From a virus, in IMG/VR virus record IMGVR_UViG_3300027733_000039, positions 33,132-97,131 of that record: 64,000 nucleotides of DNA, one strand, 5' to 3'. Shown piece by piece: positions 24,822 to 42,925 of the stretch. Within the stretch, counting starts at the first letter, position 1. Every line of letters starts with the position of its first letter. The notes beneath the pieces are model-generated. The model was not told where the DNA came from, made no database searches, and saw only the letters and a list, made by a program, of their open reading frames with translations. Both the position numbers and the translations under genes were made by a program.

Positions 24822-25763
24822 ATGGGCCTAATTAATAACTTTATGAGCGGTGGACGCTCTATTTCTGCTGGGTCACTAAATCCACGAGCCAATCGTGGTT
24901 CCACAAATCAGGCTGATGGGTATTGGCGTGGTGGTCTTTCTGGTTTTGCCGCAGTGGGAGCAACTGGTAGTTATGCATTGTCAACACTAGGTGGTTTCAA
25001 GTATTTGACCTTCACGGCTGGTGGAACAATGAACGTCACCGATGGTGGGACTGCTGATGTCTTGGTGGTAGCGGGAGGTGCCGCTGGAGGATATGGTGGC
25101 GCAGGCGGTGGTGGTGGTGGCGGTGTGCGAGTTTCTGCTGGAACAATTTTGACAACACTTACTTTTAATTCTGGAGTAAGCACAATAACAATTGGTAACG
25201 GTGGCAGTTCTGGGGCAGACGGTTCATCGGGTTATGGCGGCAGTGGAGGCACATCAAGCATTACACATGCTGCGGGGACTTTCTCAGCAACGGGTGGCGG
25301 TGGAGGCGGTACTGGTGGTGCTAGTTCTGGTGGTTCTGGTGGCGGTGGAATAGGTTCCTATGGATCAGGAAACGCTGGTGGATATACACCAGCGGAAGGA
25401 AAAAATGGTAGCGGAAGCGGTGCTGCTGGCGTCGGTGGTGGTGGAGGTTGGTCAGCCGCTGGTGATGGCTCAATGGGTTACGGAGGAGAAGGTCTTGCTG
25501 TGAATACAGCCGACTCAAACCTTTCAACTGTCATTGGCTACTCGGTTGTTGGTTCTGGTGGCGGTGGTGCAGGAAACTGTAACAACGGTGGTTCAGGAAA
25601 CATTTATGGTGGTACTGGTGGGGGTAAAGGCTCATACGGAAATGATGCACAAAACGCAACTAGTTACGGTTCTGGTGGCGGCGGTGGCGGAAACTGTTTT
25701 GGTTCCCTATATCACGGTGGTGCTGGCAGGTCTGGAATTATTGTGATCAGGTGGGCGGCATGA
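24822..25763 (+). CDS. Gly-rich adhesin 7 (313 aa)
   Basis: The N-terminus (GLINNFMSGGRSISAGSLNP) differs from other copies. LSTLGGFKYLTFTAGGTMNV precedes DVLVVAGGAAGGYGGAGGGG, and a Gly-rich region runs to the terminal GRSGIIVIRWAA. As in adhesin 6, the TFTAGG strand comes before the Gly region. It overlaps the next gene by four bases (ATGA). Confidence 0.75.
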   Translation: MGLINNFMSGGRSISAGSLNPRANRGSTNQADGYWRGGLSGFAAVGATGSYALSTLGGFKYLTFTAGGTMNVTDGGTADVLVVAGGAAGGYGGAGGGGGGGVRVSAGTILTTLTFNSGVSTITIGNGGSSGADGSSGYGGSGGTSSITHAAGTFSATGGGGGGTGGASSGGSGGGGIGSYGSGNAGGYTPAEGKNGSGSGAAGVGGGGGWSAAGDGSMGYGGEGLAVNTADSNLSTVIGYSVVGSGGGGAGNCNNGGSGNIYGGTGGGKGSYGNDAQNATSYGSGGGGGGNCFGSLYHGGAGRSGIIVIRWAA

Positions 25764-27587: not shown

Positions 27588-28472
27588 ATGCCAACCTTTT
27601 GGGATAAGAGAAATAACGTAAGTCAAACCGTTGTTAGTACACCCACCTCTATAAAAACACGCCCATCAACAACTGTTGCTTCTTGGTTTAACCCTCTAAA
27701 CAATAAATTAGTTGCTACAGGTGGAAGCATCCTTGACGTTAGTGGTTACCGTGTGCACACCTTTCAAGCATCTGGATCTTTCATCGTTACTTCTGGTTCT
27801 GCAACTATTCAAATAGGTTTGCTTTCTGGAGGAGGTGCTGGAAAAGGAGATGGCAACGGAGGTGGCGGTGGCGGTGGAGGAGGCTACAAAGAATTTACAA
27901 TTACTGGTGTTGGCGTAGGTACATACAGTGTGGCTGTTGGTGGAGGTGGTCCAGCAAATACAATTGGTGGTGCTTCCTATATGCCCGAGTTTTATATAAA
28001 TAGCACAGGTGGTGGACCAGGTAGTGGATTTGCCACTGTCGGTGGCGTTGGCGGCAACGGAGGTGGTGGTGGCGCTTTTGCCGCTGGTGGGTCATCCTAC
28101 CCAGATGAAGGTAACGCTGGTGGTGCTGGAAACTTTTACAATGGTGGAGGTGGCGGCGGCAGAGGAAGTGCGGGTAGTGCGGGTGGAGCCAACCCAGTAG
28201 AAACTGGTGGTAATGGTGGTACTGGCGCTTTACTTCCTTGGGCAAACATCCCATCTATACAAGTAATGAGTGCGGGTGGCGGTGGAGGAGGCGGTGGCGG
28301 TGGAGGTGGTGTTTCCACTGGTGGAGCAGGCGGTGGCGGAAACGGAGCAGGTTACGCTGGCGGTGCTAATGGTGTTGCAGGAACACAATTTATTGGAGGT
28401 GGTGGAGGTGGCGGATACTTCGCTGGAGGAAATGGTGGTAGTGGAACGGTGTGGATTAGGTATGTCCTCTAG
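27588..28472 (+). CDS. Gly-rich adhesin 8 (294 aa)
   Basis: The N-terminus is PTFWDKRNNVSQTVVSTPTS. ILDVSGYRVHTFQASGSFIV comes before IQIGLLSGGGAGKGDGNGGG, so the TFxASG strand again precedes the Gly region. The latter ends GGSGTVWIRYVL. It has the longest unbroken Gly runs of the set (GGGGGGGGGGG near residue 230). It closes the fibre array; the endolysin gene with its own promoter follows. Confidence 0.75.
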   Translation: MPTFWDKRNNVSQTVVSTPTSIKTRPSTTVASWFNPLNNKLVATGGSILDVSGYRVHTFQASGSFIVTSGSATIQIGLLSGGGAGKGDGNGGGGGGGGGYKEFTITGVGVGTYSVAVGGGGPANTIGGASYMPEFYINSTGGGPGSGFATVGGVGGNGGGGGAFAAGGSSYPDEGNAGGAGNFYNGGGGGGRGSAGSAGGANPVETGGNGGTGALLPWANIPSIQVMSAGGGGGGGGGGGGVSTGGAGGGGNGAGYAGGANGVAGTQFIGGGGGGGYFAGGNGGSGTVWIRYVL

Positions 28473-28489: not shown

Positions 28490-29065
28490 ATGACAAAAAT
28501 GACCTGGCCTGTAGTCCCAATCAAATTCTGTGAACACCTTAAAGGCAAGAAGCCTTCGGAAATCACCCCAGCAATGCTTCGCAAATTGTCGTGTGGTGGT
28601 CAACTGCACCATTGCGCCGCCCGTGCTTTTGAAGCAATGAAGGCAGCCGCAGCAGTTGATGGTGTTGTCTTGGCTCCGACTAGCGTCGGTGACACTTTTA
28701 GAAGTATTGGCGCCCAAAAGGCAGGATTCCTACAAAGATTTCAGTTAGAAGTTATTCCAGGTGCCCAGACACGCACCTATGACGGCAAGACGTGGTACTT
28801 GAAGAAAGGCATGGCAGTGCTTGCCAGCCCAACAGATGACGCCGCTAAATGTTCAAAGCACATGCTTGGCATTGCCATTGATATTGCTAACACAGGCAAC
28901 AAGAAGATCATGGATTGGCTATTGGCTAACGAACAGAAGTTTGGTTTTAGTCATGAAGTTGTAGATATGCCAGGCGCCGAGAGTTGGCACATTCGTTTCA
29001 CTGAGGGTCAGGCTATGCCACAATCCGTTCTTGACTACGAGGCAACACTTCCTCCAAAGGCGTAA
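28490..29065 (+). CDS. Endolysin, M15 (VanY-type) peptidase (191 aa)
   Basis: The M15 metallopeptidase signature is present: SKHMLGIAIDIANTG near residues 122-136 gives the zinc ligands His and Asp, and ESWHIRF near 163-169 gives the second His. The first 60 residues (FCEHLKGKKPSEITPAML and GGQLHHCAARAFEAMKAA) form a helical substrate-binding region. Such enzymes cut peptide cross-links or stem peptides in peptidoglycan. No signal peptide is seen, so release needs a holin. A related catalytic domain sits in the tape measure protein. Confidence 0.85.
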   Translation: MTKMTWPVVPIKFCEHLKGKKPSEITPAMLRKLSCGGQLHHCAARAFEAMKAAAAVDGVVLAPTSVGDTFRSIGAQKAGFLQRFQLEVIPGAQTRTYDGKTWYLKKGMAVLASPTDDAAKCSKHMLGIAIDIANTGNKKIMDWLLANEQKFGFSHEVVDMPGAESWHIRFTEGQAMPQSVLDYEATLPPKA

Positions 29066-30353: not shown

Positions 30354-31919
30354 GTGCTTACAGACGACGAACTAGACGAAAACCTTTTAGCCGAAGACGT
30401 AGCCGAAGAGTTAGACGAGACTTCGGCAGAGTTTCTTGACGAACTGGTTAAACGCATTATTGTTTTTACTGAAGAGTTTTGCGATATTGAACTCTTTCCA
30501 TACCAAGTTCCTATTGCTTATCGCTTAATTGAATCTGTCATTCTTGGTGACGGCGAAGAAATAACTGTTGTAGCAACACGTCAGAGTGGTAAGTCTGAAG
30601 TGCTCTCTAATGTCATGGCTTCTATGATGGTTATCTTGCCTAAGTTGGCAAAGGTGTACCCAACATGGTTAGAGAAGTTTGAACGAGGTTTTTGGTGTGG
30701 AGTGTTTGCTCCTGTGGAAGACCAAGCCGACACTGTCTTTAGTCGTATCGTTGGCAAGTTAACAAGTGAGCATGCTCTTGACTTCCTCTTAGACCCTGAG
30801 ATTGATGACAAAGCCACATCAGGTGGAGCACGAGGTAAGGGACGCATCATCACTCTGAAGCACTCAGGTTCCCTTTGCCGTATGCAAACGTGTAACCCTA
30901 AAGCCAAGATTGAATCAAAGACGTATCACTTCATTTTGATTGACGAGGCTCAAGGTGCTGACGAGTTCATGATTGCCAAGTCTATTAAGCCAATGCTTGC
31001 CTTTAATAACGGAAGCATTTGCCTTACAGGAACGGCTACCCGAAACAAATCTTACTTCTACAAAATGATCCAGTACAACAAAAGACGAATGGTTAACGGT
31101 GGTCGTAAGACCCGCCCTTCACACTTTGAATACGACTGGAAGGTTGCTGCTAAGTACAACGCCAACTATGGCAAGTTTATTGCTAAAGAAAAACTACGCA
31201 TCGGAGAAGACTCCGACGAATTCCAAATGTCCTACGAAAACAAATGGGTCCTTGATAGAGGTATGTTTGTCACGGATGAGCGCTTAGAGAGGCTCTATGA
31301 CCCCTCTATGGGGCTTGTAAAGCAATGGTGGAGGACACCCGTAGTAGTCGGTATTGACGTTGCTCGCTCTAATGACTCCACCGTAGTGACAGTCTGTTGG
31401 GTTGACTGGGACCACCCAGATCCTTTTGGCTTCCACGAGCATCGTGTCCTCAACTGGTTAGAAATTAACAATGAAGAATGGGAAACCCAGTATTTCCAAA
31501 TCATTGACTTCTTGCGTAACTATGACCCTCTCAGAATTGGTATTGACTCTCAGGGTGTGGGCGGCGCTGTGGCTGAACGATTCAAAGTTCTTCTACCAGA
31601 TATTGAAGTAGTTTCCATATCTTCAGACTCCAAGGCACAGCACGAGCGCTGGGTACACCTAACTGAACTCATTCAGAGAGAGCAATTAATTATTCCAGGT
31701 CACTCTAAGGCTAAACGCACCCGTACTTGGAAGCGCTTTAACCAGCAAATGGGTGACCTAGAAAAGGCTTATCGTGGTCCATATATGTTGGCAGAGGCTC
31801 CTAATGAAAAAGGTGCTTTTGATGACTACCCCGATTCTCTTGCTATTGCCTGCTTTATGACCATGACGGATACCATGCCCCAGATACAGGTGGCGGAATC
31901 TCCATTCTTCGGTCGCTAA
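30354..31919 (+). CDS. Terminase large subunit (521 aa)
   Basis: The ATPase domain has Walker A ATRQSGKS (74-81), Walker B ILIDEAQ (194-200) and motif III TGTATR (225-230). The nuclease domain has VVGIDVARS with Asp335, GIDSQGVGG with Asp398, and a late acidic DYPDSLAIAC with Asp494. It packages phage DNA through the portal and cuts concatemers. Length is normal for the family. It starts the packaging/head module with its own leaderless promoter. The motifs fit T4/Terminase_6-like enzymes; whether packaging is headful or site-specific cannot be judged. Confidence 0.95.
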   Translation: MLTDDELDENLLAEDVAEELDETSAEFLDELVKRIIVFTEEFCDIELFPYQVPIAYRLIESVILGDGEEITVVATRQSGKSEVLSNVMASMMVILPKLAKVYPTWLEKFERGFWCGVFAPVEDQADTVFSRIVGKLTSEHALDFLLDPEIDDKATSGGARGKGRIITLKHSGSLCRMQTCNPKAKIESKTYHFILIDEAQGADEFMIAKSIKPMLAFNNGSICLTGTATRNKSYFYKMIQYNKRRMVNGGRKTRPSHFEYDWKVAAKYNANYGKFIAKEKLRIGEDSDEFQMSYENKWVLDRGMFVTDERLERLYDPSMGLVKQWWRTPVVVGIDVARSNDSTVVTVCWVDWDHPDPFGFHEHRVLNWLEINNEEWETQYFQIIDFLRNYDPLRIGIDSQGVGGAVAERFKVLLPDIEVVSISSDSKAQHERWVHLTELIQREQLIIPGHSKAKRTRTWKRFNQQMGDLEKAYRGPYMLAEAPNEKGAFDDYPDSLAIACFMTMTDTMPQIQVAESPFFGR

Positions 31920-32834: not shown

Positions 32835-33854
32835 ATGGGAAATAGGTCCAGCCTAGAAAAAAGACTTGCTGAAGCCAGCATTGATGACGTAATTAAGTAC
32901 TCAACAGGCAAAGGTCTTAAAGAAGCCCAAAGTACCTTTAGCAAGTTATCCCAAAGCACTACTGGCACTACCAAAGCAGGCGACATCAAACGTGGTGGTA
33001 GCAAACCTTATTTGCTAGGTAGTTCCACCAAACTAGAACATAATGATACTTCTGGTGAAACCAGTGTCCTTGGTTCAAAACAACTTGTGCAATACCTACA
33101 ACCATCCACACAAGGTGGCATCAAAGGTTGTAACACCTGTGGTTCTGAAACAAAAGGTTGCAAAGGCGCTTGCCTTAGTGGCTCAGGTCAACTCGGACTA
33201 ACTGGTGGAGAAATTGCCAAACAGACACGGACTAAAATGGCATGGGAGCACCCAGATCAATATTTAGGTCTCGTACATTCACAAATTCGTAACCATGAAA
33301 GAACTGCGCAAGGGATGCGTAGGACTGCTGTTGTTCGTTTAAATGGAACCTCTGATGTTGGCTGGCACCGCCTGGGTGAGACCTCAGATCTTCTGATTGG
33401 ATCCCGTCCAAAGACTCAATTCAATGAGTACACAAAGTTTGATACTCACGACGTCGTAGAGCATGAGGATCCAAATCCTTACAGCAATTACCACCAAATC
33501 CATAGCGTGACCGAGAACACGACAGTTCCCCGCATTCAGCAAATTACTTCTTCAGGACGAAACGTTGCGGTACCTTTCAATATTAAGAAAGGTGAGTCAG
33601 TTCCTAACGCTGTAACTTTGCGAGACAAGCAAGGTCGTAGCATTGACCTACCAACCGTTCGTACAGAACGTGGTGAGTCCGCAGGAGATGCTCATGACAT
33701 GCGTCACCTTGACCAAAAGATTGGTGGCGCTGTAGTTCTTCGTGCTAAAGAAATCACTGTTCAAGGACGCCGTGGCGTGTTTGATAAGACTGGTTTTATT
33801 CGTCCTATGGAAACCCCTGTGCAAGCACCACAACGTAGGAAGCACACAGAATGA
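32835..33854 (+). CDS. Cys-motif protein with RLNGTSD box (339 aa)
   Basis: A cluster CNTCGSETKGCKGACL (about residues 97-112) gives CxxC-x6-C-x3-C and could bind a metal or iron-sulfur cluster. Downstream are GEIAKQTRTKMAWEHPDQYL and VVRLNGTSDVGWHRLGE. This order, a Cys cluster, then an Arg/Lys helix, then RLNGTSD, recurs in a phage family of unknown function (gp88/DUF7227-like, from memory). The C-terminal third is beta-rich and basic. It lies within the head module, 915 bases after the terminase. Function is unknown; a redox or nucleic-acid role is possible. Confidence 0.6.
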   Translation: MGNRSSLEKRLAEASIDDVIKYSTGKGLKEAQSTFSKLSQSTTGTTKAGDIKRGGSKPYLLGSSTKLEHNDTSGETSVLGSKQLVQYLQPSTQGGIKGCNTCGSETKGCKGACLSGSGQLGLTGGEIAKQTRTKMAWEHPDQYLGLVHSQIRNHERTAQGMRRTAVVRLNGTSDVGWHRLGETSDLLIGSRPKTQFNEYTKFDTHDVVEHEDPNPYSNYHQIHSVTENTTVPRIQQITSSGRNVAVPFNIKKGESVPNAVTLRDKQGRSIDLPTVRTERGESAGDAHDMRHLDQKIGGAVVLRAKEITVQGRRGVFDKTGFIRPMETPVQAPQRRKHTE

Positions 33855-34158: not shown

Positions 34159-34458
34159 GTGAAACAAGAAGACCATAAAAGTAGTTTATTGGATGCGCTT
34201 TTAAATCCAAAAGACGATGCAACATCCGATACTTGCAAGTTTACTCGCACCAAAATGAAGATGTCTTCTGATGAACAAGAGGCTATAGACAGAGCCATTG
34301 AACTTATCCGAGAAGATAACGGTTTGGGCAAAAGTAAAACGTACAGTGCGTCATGGCTTACTAAAGTCATGCGCCAACATGGATACAACGTAAGCATAAG
34401 TACCATCCAACGGCATGTCAATAAGGATTGCTGTTGTTACCAAGGAGGCGCACAATGA
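34159..34458 (+). CDS. Small DNA-binding-like protein (99 aa)
   Basis: A GTG start gives 99 residues. Residues 46-62 form a helix (EQEAIDRAIELIREDNG). SASWLTKVMRQHGYNVSIST and the following IQRHVN look like a helix-turn-helix in which the recognition helix would be SISTIQRHV. The protein ends in CCCYQGGAQ, a cluster of three cysteines. A dyad lies just upstream. It overlaps the start of the metallophosphoesterase gene by four bases. A regulator or small terminase role are both possible. Confidence 0.55.
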   Translation: MKQEDHKSSLLDALLNPKDDATSDTCKFTRTKMKMSSDEQEAIDRAIELIREDNGLGKSKTYSASWLTKVMRQHGYNVSISTIQRHVNKDCCCYQGGAQ

Positions 34459-35609
34459 GTGAACTGGCAGACGCATTAAGTAATCCACCACAAGACAAGA
34501 GCAAACTTCTTGGCAAGTTGGTGGAAATGTTGGAGCGTAAAAACATTGACATCAACGAAATTGGTGATGTTAGAAAAGTAAAGTTGTATCAGTCACTTAC
34601 AAAAGACGCTGACGGTGAAGCACAAATCCACGATCTTGCAGCAATTCAGTTCAGCCCTAAATGGGAGACTGGTCCTGAATGGCCTGTTGTAAAACAAGGT
34701 CCTGCTGTCAAGATGCCACCAGTAACAGCCAAAACTAAAAAGCCAACAACATTTAAAACATGTGTAATTGTTCCCGATATTCAAATTGGATATTACCGTG
34801 GTCGTGATGGTCAGTTGGAGCCAACTCATGATGAGAAAGCAATCCATGTTTGTTTAAAGATGATTCAAGATACCCAACCTGAAGTCATTGCATGTGTGGG
34901 AGACAACTTGGACTTTCCTGAAATGGGTAAGTATCTGACGTACCCTGCGTATGCACAAACTACGCAAGCATCTATTGATCGTGCAACTTTCTTCTGTGCA
35001 CAAATGCGAGCAATGGCTCCTAATGCAAAGATCATTTGGCTTGCAGGAAACCATGAAGAGCGCATGCCTAAGTACATCCTTGTTAACGCAGGTGTCGCTT
35101 ATGGTCTGCGTAAGGGAAACATTCCTGAGTCATGGCCTGTGTTAAGTGTCCCTTACCTGTGTCGCATGGATGAATTTGGCGTGGAGTACCGTCCAGGTTA
35201 TCCAGCAGCAGATTTCTGGGTCAATGAAAAACTCCGTATTATCCACGGTGATCGTGTGAAGTCGTCAGGATCCACAGCACACGTTTACCTCAACCAAGAA
35301 AAGACGAGCGTCATCTATGGTCACATACACCGAATTGAAACAGCATTTAAAACTCGTGAAGACTTTGATGGACCAAGAACCATCATGGCGGCTTCTCCTG
35401 GTTGCCTTGCTCGGATTGACGGCGCTATCCCTTCTACTCGTGGCGGGGTGGATCTAGACGGACGTCCGCTAACTCGCTACGAGAACTGGCAACAGGGTCT
35501 TGGAGTCGTTCAGTACGAAGATTCAGGAGCACATCGCTTCTCTTATGACGTCATCCCTATCTATGACGGTTGGGCAATGTACAACGGCAAGGAATATCAG
35601 GCAGACTAA
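34455..35609 (+). CDS. Calcineurin-like metallophosphoesterase (384 aa)
   Basis: ATG 34455 is preferred because AAGGAGG lies just before it; a longer frame from 34428 lacks a site. The metal-binding set is complete: VPDIQIG (Asp), CVGDNLDFPE (GDxxD), LAGNHEERM (GNHE), IIHGDRV and YGHIHRIE (GHxH). The first 85 residues are a separate helical region. The fold covers nucleases, phosphatases and nucleotidases. In phages similar enzymes act on DNA ends or nucleotides; the substrate here is unknown. The neighbours are an HTH-like protein and a proteasome-like peptidase (TAATG overlap). Confidence 0.85.
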   Translation: MSELADALSNPPQDKSKLLGKLVEMLERKNIDINEIGDVRKVKLYQSLTKDADGEAQIHDLAAIQFSPKWETGPEWPVVKQGPAVKMPPVTAKTKKPTTFKTCVIVPDIQIGYYRGRDGQLEPTHDEKAIHVCLKMIQDTQPEVIACVGDNLDFPEMGKYLTYPAYAQTTQASIDRATFFCAQMRAMAPNAKIIWLAGNHEERMPKYILVNAGVAYGLRKGNIPESWPVLSVPYLCRMDEFGVEYRPGYPAADFWVNEKLRIIHGDRVKSSGSTAHVYLNQEKTSVIYGHIHRIETAFKTREDFDGPRTIMAASPGCLARIDGAIPSTRGGVDLDGRPLTRYENWQQGLGVVQYEDSGAHRFSYDVIPIYDGWAMYNGKEYQAD

Positions 35610-36238
35610 TGACAACCATCATTGGCGTACAAGGTGATGGCTTTGCTGTCGTGTGCGTTGATTCTCGTATTTCTTCTATGGACTCCACTGGGCTATCTCA
35701 GATTGGTACGTTACGAGAAGGGTCTAGCAAGGTTGCAATAAACGGCAAGTACTTGTTAGGAGCGGCTGGAGACGTTCGTGCAATCAATATCTTGCACCAT
35801 GTCTTTCAGCCACCTGCACCCCCTCCAAATGTCAAAGGAAAGAAACTAGACCAGTTCTTTACTGCCAAGTTTATTCCTGCTCTACGGGAATGCTTTGATT
35901 CTCAAGGCTATTCCATCCCTGATCGTGAAGACAAAGAACATATGGCAGAACAGGGGTCTACCCTTTTAATTGCTGTAAACGGCGTTATCTACATCGTGGA
36001 TGGGGACTACTCGTGGGCATCAGAAGCCAATGGTCTTTACTCAATAGGCTCAGGTTCTGCCTACGCTTTGGGGGCAATGCAAGTACTCACACATAACAAG
36101 AAGCAAACCGTTCAGCAGGCTAAAACCCACGCTATTAAGGCTTTAACTATTGCTGCTCGCTTTGATCCCCATACGGGCGCTCCGTACCATACATATGTTC
36201 AAGAGCAAGAAAACACCCGTACTCGTAAAACGGTATAA
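35609..36238 (+). CDS. Proteasome/HslV-like Ntn-hydrolase (209 aa)
   Basis: ATG 35609 overlaps the preceding stop and gives MTTIIGVQGDGFAVVCVDSR. After Met removal Thr would be the N-terminal nucleophile, as in HslV (TTIV). Asp18 in CVDSR and a Lys in SSKVAIN (about 41) fit the catalytic Asp17 and Lys33 of proteasome beta subunits. LIAVNGVIYIVDGD, IGSGSAYALGAM and IAARFDPHTG match the family's conserved blocks, the last being the RDxxSG-like turn. No unfoldase gene is nearby. Lying between terminase and portal, it might process head proteins or degrade host proteins. Peptidase activity is inferred. Confidence 0.8.
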   Translation: MTTIIGVQGDGFAVVCVDSRISSMDSTGLSQIGTLREGSSKVAINGKYLLGAAGDVRAINILHHVFQPPAPPPNVKGKKLDQFFTAKFIPALRECFDSQGYSIPDREDKEHMAEQGSTLLIAVNGVIYIVDGDYSWASEANGLYSIGSGSAYALGAMQVLTHNKKQTVQQAKTHAIKALTIAARFDPHTGAPYHTYVQEQENTRTRKTV

Positions 36239-36266: not shown

Positions 36267-36533
36267 ATGGCTGATCTCAAGAAAACACACGCAGACGCAA
36301 CAATTAAGGGTGCCGCAATCGGACTCTTGGCTTATGTCGCTGCAAAATACAATGTCTCACCAGAAGTAGTTGCTGTGGCAATTCCACTAGTAGCCGCTGG
36401 TTTGTCAGTGGTATCAAGCAAGATCGGTGATAAAAACACCGCACTATTGTTGAGCCTTGCAACAAAAGCAATTGAACAAGCACCAGCACCAATCAAGGCA
36501 CCAGCAAAAAAGACTGCTCCAAAAAAGAAGTAG
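36267..36533 (+). CDS. Small membrane protein with Lys/Pro tail (88 aa)
   Basis: ATG 36267 follows AAGGAG. Two hydrophobic helices, about residues 13-28 and 34-51, are followed by a third weak segment (TALLLSLATKAIEQA) and an Ala/Pro/Lys tail ending TAPKKK. This is holin-like in layout, similar to gene 6976. It precedes the portal gene, so a virion or membrane role is equally open. Confidence 0.55.
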   Translation: MADLKKTHADATIKGAAIGLLAYVAAKYNVSPEVVAVAIPLVAAGLSVVSSKIGDKNTALLLSLATKAIEQAPAPIKAPAKKTAPKKK

Positions 36534-36572: not shown

Positions 36573-38261
36573 ATGGCTGTTGATTTCTGGTCCCCGTCTT
36601 ACCGTGCATCTTCAAGCGACCTCACTGTTGCTATCAGCCCTTTGGGTTTGGTGGAATTGGCAGACGAAGAGTTTGAAGTCCATGGACCACGTTTAAACCG
36701 CTACAGCGCAGCGTGGGCTTGGTATTTAGGACACCACTGGAGTTATCGCCGTGAGATGGGTGAGTCACAGTTCTACTTGAACTATGTCCGCACTATGTCG
36801 GATTACATTACTAACTTTTGTTTTGGTAAAGGTGTTCAATTTAAAACACCTGAACAGAACGGCGCCATCATTCCACACCTGCTTCACCGTGTATGGGATC
36901 AAGACAACAACAAACACTTTGTGTTGTGGGAGATGGGTCAACTTGCTTCAGTAACTGGTGACTGCTTTGTCAAAGTTGCCTTTGAAGAGCCTTACGTGGA
37001 TTCTGTAAACATTGCGCATGAAGGTCGTGTGCGAGTCATTCCGTTGAACCCAGCGCATTGCTTCCCTGAATACCATCCACATGACCGTGATCGTTTGATT
37101 CGTTTTAAACTCAAGTATCGCTTTTGGGGAACTTCTCCAGAAGGTACTCGTCAGGTATATACCTTTACTGAAATCCTTACTGATGATACTGTTCAACAAT
37201 TCATCAATGATGAACTCATTGACCAGTATGACAATGTGTTGGGAACTATCCCCATCGTTCATATCCCAAATACGACCATCTCGTCATCGCCTTGGGGTCA
37301 ATCAGATGTCTGGGACATCATCCCACTGAACCGTGAACTTAACGAGAAGATGGTTGAAGTATCTGACATCATCAACTACCATGCTGCTCCTGTAACAATT
37401 ATTACTGGTGCTAAGGCTTCACAACTAGAGCGTGGTCCTAAGAAAGTTTGGGCAGGTCTTCCTAAAGACGCTAACGTTTTCAACCTTGAATCTCGTGGTG
37501 AGATGTCGGGTGCTTTGGAATACATCAGTGTTATTAAGCGCACCATGCATGAAATCACTGGTGTGCCTGAAACTGCTCTTGGTCAATTCCAACCAGTATC
37601 CAATACTTCAGGTGTTGCTTTGGCTATCCAATACCAGCCAATGATGAATCGTTTCATGATGAAAAAGATTCACTTCACCAAAGGTTTAGAGCGAGTAAAT
37701 GAACTCATCATTCGTACCGTGGCTATCTTTCAACCTGAGTGGCTCTCATATAATCCTTCACTTGCTGCGGAACCCGAACCAGATCAACTCCCTCAGTTAG
37801 ACCCTCGGGATCCAAGTATCTATAAGACCACAGTGCACTGGCCTGAGCCATTGCCTGTAGATGTGCTTATTAAACTTAATGAGGTTCAAGCCAAAATGGC
37901 ATTGGGTCTGGAATCTAAGCGTGGTGCCTTGCGTACCTTGGGCGAAGAGTTCCCCAATGAGAAGATGCTTGAGATCTTTGAAGAACTTCAAGATGACGCC
38001 TTGGATCAGGGCGCTCTTGACATGATGCGTGCCCAAATCCAGCAAGCCATTATGTTGGCTACTGGAATGGTTACGAATCCAGACGGAGGGGCGGCTCCCG
38101 CACCCACACCTTCTGGAGATGGTAATGTGGCTTCATCTGATAGCGGTAACGCTCCTTTACCAGGAGTGCCACCAATAGAAGAGGAGTTAGTAAACAAAAT
38201 AGTTTCACGGGCATACGGGGCAAGGTTCGCCCAACGCCGTAACCCAGACGAAGACAATTAA
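36573..38261 (+). CDS. Portal protein (562 aa)
   Basis: It has the length, position and motifs of SPP1 gp6-type portals: YYLNYVRTMSDYI-like N-terminal helices, PIVHIPNTT, the wing region IPLNRELNEKMVEVSDIIN, then ITGVPETALGQ and SNTSGVALAIQYQPMMNR leading to the stem helix. The C-terminal 90 residues are an acidic helix plus a Pro/Gly-rich flexible end. Twelve copies would form the DNA channel at the head vertex. The ribosome-binding site is AAGG. Confidence 0.92.
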   Translation: MAVDFWSPSYRASSSDLTVAISPLGLVELADEEFEVHGPRLNRYSAAWAWYLGHHWSYRREMGESQFYLNYVRTMSDYITNFCFGKGVQFKTPEQNGAIIPHLLHRVWDQDNNKHFVLWEMGQLASVTGDCFVKVAFEEPYVDSVNIAHEGRVRVIPLNPAHCFPEYHPHDRDRLIRFKLKYRFWGTSPEGTRQVYTFTEILTDDTVQQFINDELIDQYDNVLGTIPIVHIPNTTISSSPWGQSDVWDIIPLNRELNEKMVEVSDIINYHAAPVTIITGAKASQLERGPKKVWAGLPKDANVFNLESRGEMSGALEYISVIKRTMHEITGVPETALGQFQPVSNTSGVALAIQYQPMMNRFMMKKIHFTKGLERVNELIIRTVAIFQPEWLSYNPSLAAEPEPDQLPQLDPRDPSIYKTTVHWPEPLPVDVLIKLNEVQAKMALGLESKRGALRTLGEEFPNEKMLEIFEELQDDALDQGALDMMRAQIQQAIMLATGMVTNPDGGAAPAPTPSGDGNVASSDSGNAPLPGVPPIEEELVNKIVSRAYGARFAQRRNPDEDN

Positions 38262-38313: not shown

Positions 38314-39114
38314 ATGGCTAAGAACGTCAGTCCCGAAGGGGACATTATTACAGTACCTGCGGACGCACCGATGGTGGAACGCTTCGTAGAAAGTGCTATG
38401 AGTAAGCCCAGCAAAACCTTCACTGAAGAAGAAGTTGAAGGCATCCGCAAGCAAGAAAAAGATAAAATGTACAAGCGCATTGAGGAAGCGGATTCCCGTG
38501 TGAAGTCAATGGAAGACCAAATGAGTGTAATCTCCTCAGAGCGTGAGGCAGCCCGTAAAGAGGCTGACGAACGTAAGTCCAAGGAATCAGAACTTCTTCG
38601 CCAACGTGAAGTGGATGAACTGAGTGCCAAGGAACTTATCGCCAAGCGAGAAGATGAGTTTAACCTAAAACTCAAAGAAATTGATGGCGACTACCAGCGA
38701 CGCTTTGCAGAGATTGAAGCCCAGCGCCAGTCCCAAGAGGCAATCATTGAAAAAGAGCGCCGACTCCAAGAACTCAACTCCTACCGCCAGCGTCGTCTGG
38801 GGGAGGAACAAGAGAACATCATCCCTCAACTCGTTGATCTTGTGGCGGGTAGTTCGGAAGATGAGATTGAAACATCTATTAGTGTACTTCGTGACCGAAG
38901 TAATGCTATTATTGAATCAATCCAACAAGCGACTGCGCAACAGCAAGGTCGCTTGAGGGGGGCACCAGTAACGGCGCCTCCTGTCGGGCCAATGGAAACT
39001 CAGACGGAATACCAACAGTTGAATGCGGATGATATCCGTAACATGACAATGGATCAGTATGCAAAAATGCGTGATCGGCTACTCAATGCCCGCCCTAATA
39101 GGGGCAGGTTTTAA
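38314..39114 (+). CDS. Capsid scaffolding protein (266 aa)
   Basis: Residues 45-170 are an almost continuous charged coiled coil (EEVEGIRKQEKDKMYKRIEE, then RQREVDELSAKELIAKREDE). The C-terminal 40 residues hold an NADDIRNMTMDQYAKMRDRL helix, a likely capsid-binding element. It lies between portal and capsid genes, the classical place. No protease motif is seen in it. The Pro-rich linker before the last helix could be a cleavage region. Confidence 0.85.
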   Translation: MAKNVSPEGDIITVPADAPMVERFVESAMSKPSKTFTEEEVEGIRKQEKDKMYKRIEEADSRVKSMEDQMSVISSEREAARKEADERKSKESELLRQREVDELSAKELIAKREDEFNLKLKEIDGDYQRRFAEIEAQRQSQEAIIEKERRLQELNSYRQRRLGEEQENIIPQLVDLVAGSSEDEIETSISVLRDRSNAIIESIQQATAQQQGRLRGAPVTAPPVGPMETQTEYQQLNADDIRNMTMDQYAKMRDRLLNARPNRGRF

Positions 39115-39151: not shown

Positions 39152-40237
39152 ATGGCTTTCCCAGCCCCAACAGGTGGTGCGGTAACAGGAGCAGATCTTG
39201 GTTCAATTACCACGACTGGTTACTCCTCAGACGCAACACTTTCACCAGCAATTCAGCAAATTTGGTCAAAAGAGATTTTGTTCCAAGCAATGCCAGTCCT
39301 TCGTTTTGAACAGTTCGCTGTCAAGAAGACGGAACTGGGAGTCATGCCAGGTCTCACCGTCAACTTTATGCGTTACAACAACCTCACGGTTGATGCTGGC
39401 GGCTCGGAGTTGGTAGAAGGCGTCCGCATGGAACCATCGGCTTTGACTGCTTCGCAGATTCAAATCACCGTGAAAGAACAAGGCAAGTCGGTTGCAGTAA
39501 CCGAGTTGCTCTTGAACGCATCATTTGATGACGTTATGGCATCGTCCAGCCGCTTGCTCGGTCGTCACATGGCACAGTCCATGGACGTTCAGGCACGCAA
39601 CACGCTGTACGCCGCAGGCGTTCCATTTGGTGGCGGTTCAGCAGTAGCACCAAGCGTTGTCTTCGGTCGCAAGACCAACGGCAGCACTCGTGGCTCAGTT
39701 GCTCCATACGAGTACTCGGCAGCAGGCTCGGCTTCGGCTCCTGGCTACCTCTCACCAGCAACCATCAAAGACGCAGTACAGGTCCTTGCTGGTCAAAACA
39801 TCCCACGCCTCGGCGACACCTACGTGTGCTTCGTTCACCCAGCCCAGAGCCGCTCGCTCCGTGACTGGCCTGAATTCATTGAAGTCACGAAGTACGCTGC
39901 TCCTGGCAACTTCATGCTCGGTGAAATCGGTCGTATCTACGACGTAGTGTTCATTGAGACCACGCAAGTTCTTCAGGGTGGCACTGGAATCGTTGACGTA
40001 ACCCCAGGTGGTTCAATCAACGACCCAACAGCAACATCATACTCAGCCATGATGATCGGAGACAACGCATTTGGTCAGGCTATTGCCTTGCCAGTTGAAC
40101 TCCGTGACGGTGGCGTCATTGACTTCGGTCGTGAGCATGGTCTTGCTTGGTACGCAATCTGGGGCTTCGGCGTAATCACGCACGAATCCCGAGTGTTGAT
40201 CAACACCAAGGGTGGCGCTATTGACGCTAACTTCTAA
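39152..40237 (+). CDS. Major capsid protein (361 aa)
   Basis: It matches N4 gp56/HK97-fold capsid proteins: an N-terminal arm, IQQIWSKEILFQAMPVLRFE, then VMPGLTVNFMRYNNLT, TASQIQITVKEQGKSVAVTE and LLGRHMAQSMDVQARNTLYA. The later VCFVHPAQSRSLRDWPEF and the GEIGRIYDVVFIETTQ strands complete the A- and P-domains. The codon use is strongly biased and the AGGAGG site is strong, as expected for the most abundant virion protein. A strong hairpin follows. Confidence 0.92.
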   Translation: MAFPAPTGGAVTGADLGSITTTGYSSDATLSPAIQQIWSKEILFQAMPVLRFEQFAVKKTELGVMPGLTVNFMRYNNLTVDAGGSELVEGVRMEPSALTASQIQITVKEQGKSVAVTELLLNASFDDVMASSSRLLGRHMAQSMDVQARNTLYAAGVPFGGGSAVAPSVVFGRKTNGSTRGSVAPYEYSAAGSASAPGYLSPATIKDAVQVLAGQNIPRLGDTYVCFVHPAQSRSLRDWPEFIEVTKYAAPGNFMLGEIGRIYDVVFIETTQVLQGGTGIVDVTPGGSINDPTATSYSAMMIGDNAFGQAIALPVELRDGGVIDFGREHGLAWYAIWGFGVITHESRVLINTKGGAIDANF

Positions 40238-41821: not shown

Positions 41822-42925
41822 ATGATTCCAGGAATCGTAGAGTCCTCAAGGTGGGTCGCTTCTTTTAGCGATACTTTTAATCGTACAGATGCTGCAAATA
41901 TTGCTACGTCTAATCTTGAATGGGCAGAGGTTATTGGCGATTGGCAAGTGGTTTCAAACACGGCATATACCCCTACTTCGGCATCTTCTTATCCATTAGC
42001 AGCCATAGACACTTTTAGAGAAAATACTTCAGTCACTTCATACAACGGTGTAGGTACTGGTTTTGGCGCTGGTTTTGGCGCTGCTTTTTGGGTAGTTGAT
42101 TCAAACAACTGGTGGGCAGTAGTTAGTGATGTGTCTACTACTCAATCAAGTGGCATAACATACTCTTGCCCCAGTGGCGGCACAGTTGAGGGAACTACTT
42201 GCAAAAAAACGTGTTATCAAACTTGTTATGACACTTGTTATGATGCTTGCTGTACAGATGGTTACTGTGCTAGTGGTTCAGGAAGTTGTGGTGGTGGTGG
42301 TTACGCCTATGGTTGTGCTACTACAGTGGCAGGTGGTTGTGACCCTGCTCGTTACTATAACTGTGGTGGGGCTACGACTGGCAACCCAAACTTGTATACC
42401 TGTACGGCTAACCCTTGCCAAGCCTGCCGTTATGTCCAAACGTATGATCCAAATACTTATCCATACTATTTTACCTATTATGAATGCTTTTCAGGAGTGG
42501 TGCCAGCCTCTACTTCATGGAGTGCAGGAACAGTTACAGCAACAGTTGCTTGCAACCCTCATACTTGCCCTACTGGGTATTCTTGTAACCCTTACGCATG
42601 TGATTACACTGCAACTGCAACAACTACCACAGTTACCAATTACGCACACACTATAAAGTTACTGCGTAAGTTGGCAGGAACCGTTTCTGTTGTTGCAACA
42701 CAGTCACTTGGGTCAGACCAAACTACTCCTATTTACCTCACCTCCCTTTCAGTAAGTACAGTAGGTAACATAATCACTTATTCAGGATTGCGCAATGGTT
42801 CTACAAATTCGTATACTGCTACAGCCGTAACTCCTACCAAGAATACAAAACACGGTATTATAATGGCACCAACTACGGCTGGTACACAGGGAAATAGAAT
42901 AGATAGATTTGATTACAACGCATAG
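41822..42925 (+). CDS. LamG-like fibre protein with Cys-rich insert (367 aa)
   Basis: The N-terminus (FSDTFNRTDAANIATSNLEW, then GDWQVVSNT) and the C-terminus (HTIKLLRKLAGTVSVVATQS, then RNGSTNSYTATA) form a LamG/concanavalin-like beta sandwich. Between them residues 115-262 hold 20 cysteines, including CKKTCYQTCYDTCYDACC with a four-residue period, CTANPCQAC and CNPHTCPTGYSC, amid Tyr/Gly/Asn. Such density points to disulfide knots or a metal cluster and is rare in phage fibres. It probably binds glycans at the cell surface. It follows gene 40639 by five bases. Confidence 0.7.
   Translation: MIPGIVESSRWVASFSDTFNRTDAANIATSNLEWAEVIGDWQVVSNTAYTPTSASSYPLAAIDTFRENTSVTSYNGVGTGFGAGFGAAFWVVDSNNWWAVVSDVSTTQSSGITYSCPSGGTVEGTTCKKTCYQTCYDTCYDACCTDGYCASGSGSCGGGGYAYGCATTVAGGCDPARYYNCGGATTGNPNLYTCTANPCQACRYVQTYDPNTYPYYFTYYECFSGVVPASTSWSAGTVTATVACNPHTCPTGYSCNPYACDYTATATTTTVTNYAHTIKLLRKLAGTVSVVATQSLGSDQTTPIYLTSLSVSTVGNIITYSGLRNGSTNSYTATAVTPTKNTKHGIIMAPTTAGTQGNRIDRFDYNA

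Follow-up and report, generated by a model that had tools for sequence, protein, structure and literature searches.

A proteasome-family peptidase encoded upstream of the portal gene in a predicted actinophage is dispensable for its head type and probably an exchangeable accessory gene

A phage gene lying shortly upstream of the portal gene encodes a proteasome-family Ntn hydrolase that is dispensable for the head type in which it is found. We hold, with moderate confidence, that it is probably a group I, AAH-like Ntn peptidase, carried by actinophages as an optional and exchangeable accessory gene and acting in the infected cell. The gene was studied in a window of 64,000 nt, the whole stretch of DNA analysed here, which covers positions 33,132 to 97,131 of the 97-kb IMG/VR record IMGVR_UViG_3300027733_000039; the whole record was also examined family by family.

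The features discussed below are collected in Table 1. The start codon of the peptidase gene overlaps the last base of the phosphoesterase stop codon (1 nt). An earlier note, made from the sequence, had placed the peptidase gene just before the portal gene; it does lie upstream of the portal, with one small ORF between the two whose product had no family match. In 12 of 75 loci, a homolog of the small protein encoded upstream of the phosphoesterase occupies the corresponding position. A VanY-type endolysin is encoded in the window, and in many relatives a homolog of it is located between the terminase and the phosphoesterase. Because of these endolysin homologs, the stretch that had been taken for a head module is better described as an accessory/lysis region than as a pure head module. 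Other genes of the window include one for a GP88-type protein, two very glycine-rich ORFs that are probably tail or fibre related and, in the structural region, an ORF with a dense cysteine-rich stretch.

Table 1. Positions of the features discussed (window coordinates unless a contig or locus handle is given)
Feature	Position	Strand	Remarks
Two very glycine-rich ORFs	24822-25763; 27588-28472		
VanY-type endolysin	28490-29065		
Terminase large subunit	30354..31919	+	
Pfam GP88 / phrog_1617 protein	32835-33854		Between terminase and portal
Small protein, weak helix-turn-helix match	34159..34458	+	Pfam match below cut-off; upstream of phosphoesterase
Metallophosphoesterase	34428..35609	+	phrog_20266, 6.7e-81
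Proteasome/HslV-like Ntn peptidase	35609..36238	+	209 aa; ATG start; product starts MTTIIG
Small hydrophobic protein, Lys/Ala-rich tail, membrane-like by sequence	36267..36533	+	Between peptidase and portal
Portal protein	36573..38261	+	phrog_64
Putative scaffold, coiled-coil-like	38314..39114	+	Suggested by position and composition
Major capsid protein (MCP), N4-gp56 family	39152..40237	+	TIGR04387, 6.9e-38
ORF with dense cysteine-rich stretch	41822-42925		CYQTCYDTCYDACCTDGYC...
WhiB-like gene, record of the window	L086:3410-3649	-	At about 22.9 kb of the record
WhiB-like gene, record of the window	L086:969-1211	+	At about 20.5 kb of the record
ClpC/ClpB-D2-like ATPase, large carriers	G020:C1:45696-47108; G025:C1:164167-165612 (L385:934-2382)		Homologs in G021, G022, G023 (match split over two frames), G026, G032
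Slot protein, gene-minus loci	L240:5319-5615; L332:7108-7452; L356:7156-7452		Weak phrog_25889 match in two of the three
Portal gene followed directly by ferritin-like gene	L136:8115-10345		Peptidase-carrying phage; Pfam Ferritin 9.8e-20

The assignment of the product to the proteasome-type Ntn hydrolases, already made in the earlier note, was supported by several independent comparisons. The protein matched Pfam Proteasome (PF00227) with an E value of 2.4e-7 and 31 bits, above the cut-off of 22.4, and the phrog_1040 'peptidase HslV family' with 2.6e-25. Behind the MTTIIG start, Asp18, Lys41, GSGSAY (147-152) and ARFDPHTG (183-190) were all present at the places of the HslV/proteasome-beta motifs, as had been noticed, and Thr2, Asp18 and Lys41 correspond to the proteasome triad Thr1/Asp17/Lys33. 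In a set of relatives reduced to less than 90% identity, Thr2, Thr3, Asp18 and Lys41 were invariant in all 75 members, as were Ala53-Gly54-Asp55, Arg57, Gly147 and Gly149. The predicted active site is intact, as judged from these residues. Moreover, dN/dS against close relatives was 0.03-0.08, and the peptidase is under purifying selection.

The sequence and the predicted structure of the peptidase were then compared with solved folds, the latter being a check proposed alongside the original family call. A single-sequence search of the PDB gave BPH (0.0015) and HslV (0.014), and a profile of 74 phage relatives gave the same two proteins with 2.9e-7 and 2.1e-6, respectively. The AlphaFold2 model built from the same alignment (mean pLDDT 90, pTM 0.86) displayed the secondary-structure elements of the proteasome-beta core, including the alpha-beta-beta-alpha arrangement of Ntn hydrolases. 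Foldseek searches of the PDB with this model returned BPH at the top (2.1e-11) and HslV next (5.3e-11), with a probability of 1.00, and the same fold was also seen in other phage proteins. The modelled subunit is compact, with helices H1 to H4 (H1 at 56-64, H2 at 77-98), and S12/H5 are absent from the model. The pore-loop region at about 99-117 (QGYSIPDREDKEHMAEQGS) is long and mildly acidic, has a pLDDT of 65-78 and is shorter in some relatives. Sequence comparison and predicted structure together confirm the family and fold call.

We then considered whether the peptidase might be a prohead protease, substituting for an S78/S77-type enzyme and cutting the scaffold, MCP or portal as the head assembles, a capsid-maturation role raised in the earlier note. 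The idea was reasonable, since no Peptidase_S78/S77 match was detected in the whole 97-kb record, in agreement with the observation that no classical prohead protease lies nearby, and since the arrangement phosphoesterase, peptidase, small ORF, portal does not vary among the close relatives of the window, where the gene keeps its place upstream of the portal in the gene-plus members of the lineage. It was contradicted by phages that have the same head genes. Using the portal as the marker of head lineage in locus comparisons, we scanned IMG/VR with the portal and MCP of the window and obtained 98 newly fetched loci, partly redundant, with more than 3 kb of upstream sequence. The peptidase gene was present in 61 of these same-portal loci and missing from the other 37, whose TerL, portal and MCP (where whole) were 72-86%, 74-85% and 74-82% identical to those of the window; conservation of these head genes is thus not matched by conservation of the peptidase. 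When ten gene-minus records of 36.5 to 94.0 kb, several of them almost complete in length, were searched whole with a profile, no peptidase was found, in records that may be incomplete and where a missing peptidase or unfoldase is not proof; the same search gave clear matches (1e-90 to 1e-100) in two gene-plus control records. In a quick portal tree of 57 rows, peptidase presence switched at least five times, and gene-minus rows stood inside gene-plus clades (L238 beside L145; L334 beside L198; and L368; L238 and L334 are fragments, and the record of L368 was searched whole). The peptidase is therefore shown to be dispensable for this head type.

The capsid protein and the distribution of canonical proteases argue in the same direction. 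The MCP N-terminus is short and alike in gene-plus and gene-minus phages, and no cleavable propeptide was recognized in the MCP, the one head protein inspected for it. In N4 and DEV, the N-terminal arm of the MCP (residues 1-46) is retained in the mature capsid (PMC11768535, PMC10925440), and the MCP of the window is, by analogy, of this uncleaved N4-gp56 kind. Other peptidase carriers possess canonical maturation proteases: of 17 records that contain peptidase loci, seven gave an S78 match above cut-off (best 4.2e-13, others 1e-5 to 1e-7), and none of the seven has a portal of the window type. DSL-LC01, the closest named relative, carries both the peptidase and an S78 prohead protease, and three of its genes, located before the MCP and about 25 kb from the peptidase, are annotated as capsid maturation protease. 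A 249-aa protein of locus L136, considered as a phrog_3677 protease, had no PHROG match and was rejected. Conversely, peptidases 71-75% identical to that of the window occur in L074, L075, L079 and L081 (contigs of 79-216 kb), loci with no other head gene in common with the window, and the window portal was absent from all 18 other-context records searched; identities of up to 75% were reached in phages of 170-216 kb that do not have this portal. Capsid maturation was thus rejected as the role of the peptidase on presence and absence, S78 co-occurrence and the MCP evidence, and we regard a prohead protease of this kind as highly improbable. The stable adjacency of peptidase and portal in gene-plus members leaves a little room for some head-related benefit. 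The tempting inference is corrected accordingly: a protease encoded next to a portal need not be a head protease.

The genes around the peptidase are instead consistent with an accessory cassette. The phosphoesterase (phrog_20266) was the commonest neighbour of the peptidase, found upstream of it, within a distance of three genes, at 29 of 75 non-redundant loci; 13 of these had the portal downstream too, and 11 had WhiB downstream and no portal. Of 24 pairs with the phosphoesterase directly upstream, 22 overlapped or had a gap of no more than 6 nt, and the peptidase is probably co-translated with the phosphoesterase. Portal-adjacent peptidases did not form one clade. Moreover, the phosphoesterase of the window was closer to its counterparts in L178 and L179 (78-80% identity), two loci without this portal, than to those in L094, L151, L207 and L196 (55-59%), where the portal is shared at 84-90%. 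Phosphoesterase identity is thus at odds with portal sharing, as predicted by exchange of an accessory cassette. The phosphoesterase was also kept where the peptidase was absent, indicating that the two proteins are not obligate partners. Where sister phages lack the peptidase gene, its place downstream of the phosphoesterase is mostly taken by a small protein of about 98-140 aa. This slot protein and the peptidase were mutually exclusive (43 loci, none shared).

Since the peptidase and phosphoesterase genes are closely linked even in unrelated contexts, the peptidase could also be a specific processing enzyme, or a connectase-like transpeptidase, whose target would be a single phage or host protein, perhaps the phosphoesterase with which it is probably translated. 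Connectase is an example of a monomeric and specific member of the family (PMC8665760). However, helices H1/H2, which are missing in connectase, are present in the peptidase model, and the phosphoesterase often occurs without the peptidase, so that we find such a dedicated role distinctly unlikely.

Whether the peptidase works with an unfoldase was addressed by a family search of the 97-kb record, which detected no AAA_2 unfoldase; no HslU partner was found encoded with the peptidase. The sole weak AAA match was a DnaC-like helicase loader and was rejected as a phage unfoldase. For these reasons, the peptidase would act alone or borrow an unfoldase of the host. In some actinophage carriers of 104-268 kb, a gene far from that of the peptidase encodes a possible unfoldase, an AAA+ ATPase of the ClpC/ClpB-D2-like type that has a single module and a phage-specific N-terminal part (PDB match 1.3e-74). 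One version of host dependence, close to an idea of the earlier note, is that the peptidase binds an AAA+ unfoldase of the host, such as ClpC, ClpX or Mpa/ARC, and diverts it to the degradation of host or defence proteins. It is homologous to HslV, which works with HslU; any partner would have to come from the host, since the record holds no phage unfoldase; and the ATPase of the large carriers could be seen in the same light. On the other hand, HslU is not generally expected in Actinobacteria, and the large-phage ATPase, besides its distance from the peptidase gene, was absent from the other carriers searched. In addition, no unfoldase is known for BPH, the nearest solved relative, and its pore loop is long and acidic (PMC5777263). 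Docking on a host unfoldase is conceivable, and we judge it rather unlikely.

Relatives of the peptidase are encoded in at least 570 IMG/VR stretches. Among the named carriers are DSL-LC01, Microbacterium phage Pumpernickel and Arthrobacter phages Pitbull and Hum25, together with a Moorella phage, a Psychrobacter phage and Vibrio phages; in these, the gene is mostly surrounded by early or accessory genes. The two WhiB-like genes in the record of the window point to an actinobacterial host. One contig of 267,766 b (IMGVR_UViG_3300042868_009074) holds two different copies of the peptidase (L188 and L191), about 219 kb apart, and in another peptidase-carrying phage the portal gene is followed directly by a ferritin-like gene (Table 1).

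Taken together, these data favour an optional accessory peptidase, and its path of action might be as follows. In this lineage, the accessory slot between the metallophosphoesterase and the portal holds the peptidase gene. Host methionine aminopeptidase would remove Met1 and expose Thr2 as the Thr1 nucleophile, and the subunits may assemble into a self-compartmentalised oligomeric ring, as in BPH and HslV, with the flexible loop at about 99-117 guarding the entry to the chamber. During infection, the peptidase would then degrade or process proteins inside the cell with no unfoldase supplied by the phage. It most likely acts in the infected actinobacterial cell and not in the virion, with host or regulatory proteins as probable targets. 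A bolder and in our opinion unlikely extension is that the actinophage branch, with its hundreds of mostly freshwater contigs, encodes an unfoldase-independent, proteasome-like compartment protease that is exchanged between unrelated phages together with the phosphoesterase and dismantles host or anti-phage proteins in the course of infection. If true, this would be a viral proteasome for host takeover or counter-defence.

Phage proteasome homologs have been catalogued already, without function, partner or informative context (Fuchs 2021), and we found nothing useful in the literature on a function for phage HslV. The present data add a large actinophage branch of the peptidase, strictly conserved and with a recurrent and probably co-translated neighbour. 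Moreover, its natural presence/absence polymorphism in close head lineages provides a matched set for studying the function of a viral proteasome homolog.

Among known systems, BPH (PDB 5ovs/5ovt/5ovu) is the best solved match by profile and by fold, and its long acidic pore loop after H1/H2 may have a counterpart in the long, mildly acidic loop that follows H2 in the peptidase. It differs in being a cellular gene, of about 20% identity to the peptidase, and the heptameric double ring is a BPH feature. BPH and Anbu showed no activity in vitro (PMC5777263). In a small tree with long branches, BPH grouped with HslV (support 85/90), apart from the phage family, which fell together with rhizobial and Streptomyces relatives. 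HslV (ClpQ) of HslVU shares the fold, the MTTI- start and the T/D/K triad, whereas the loop after H2 is longer in the peptidase. A true HslV was rejected on the NCBIfam HslV cut-offs (27.8 vs 157.75 and 29.1 vs 137 bits) and on the lack of an HslU-type ATPase in the record. The Peptidase_S78 prohead protease is likewise a phage protease typically found beside the portal, but its fold is unrelated, and both enzymes co-occur in other phages. The peptidase is a member of the phrog_1040 phage peptidases with no difference in content, and homologs are annotated in several isolated phages; the PHROG gives no mechanism.

Fuchs, Alva and Lupas named HslV, BPH, AAH, CPH and PPH as group I relatives and found neither an informative genomic neighbourhood nor an AAA+ partner (Fuchs 2021, PMC8665760). 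PPH has about 140 residues and lacks H2 (Fuchs 2021, PMC8665760), and this identity was ruled out by the 209 aa of the peptidase and by helix H2 in its model. Scans of genome contigs gave no bacterial homologs; these came from a plasmid collection, on plasmids of Rhizobium, Sinorhizobium, Mesorhizobium (E values to 5e-13), Streptomyces (3e-13) and Paraburkholderia. One Mesorhizobium and one Streptomyces relative scored 67-72 bits against the family profile, compared to 29 for BPH and HslV. Relatives in both alpha-proteobacteria and Actinobacteria, a range close to that named for AAH, and the compact H1-H4 subunit of the model fit the AAH branch as the one that the peptidase most resembles, a likeness drawn from host range and compact fold and not from the published cluster map. 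AAH was reported in phages, but in no actinobacteria-specific phage (Fuchs 2021, PMC8665760), whereas here actinophage carriers are abundant and their neighbour gene is recurrent.
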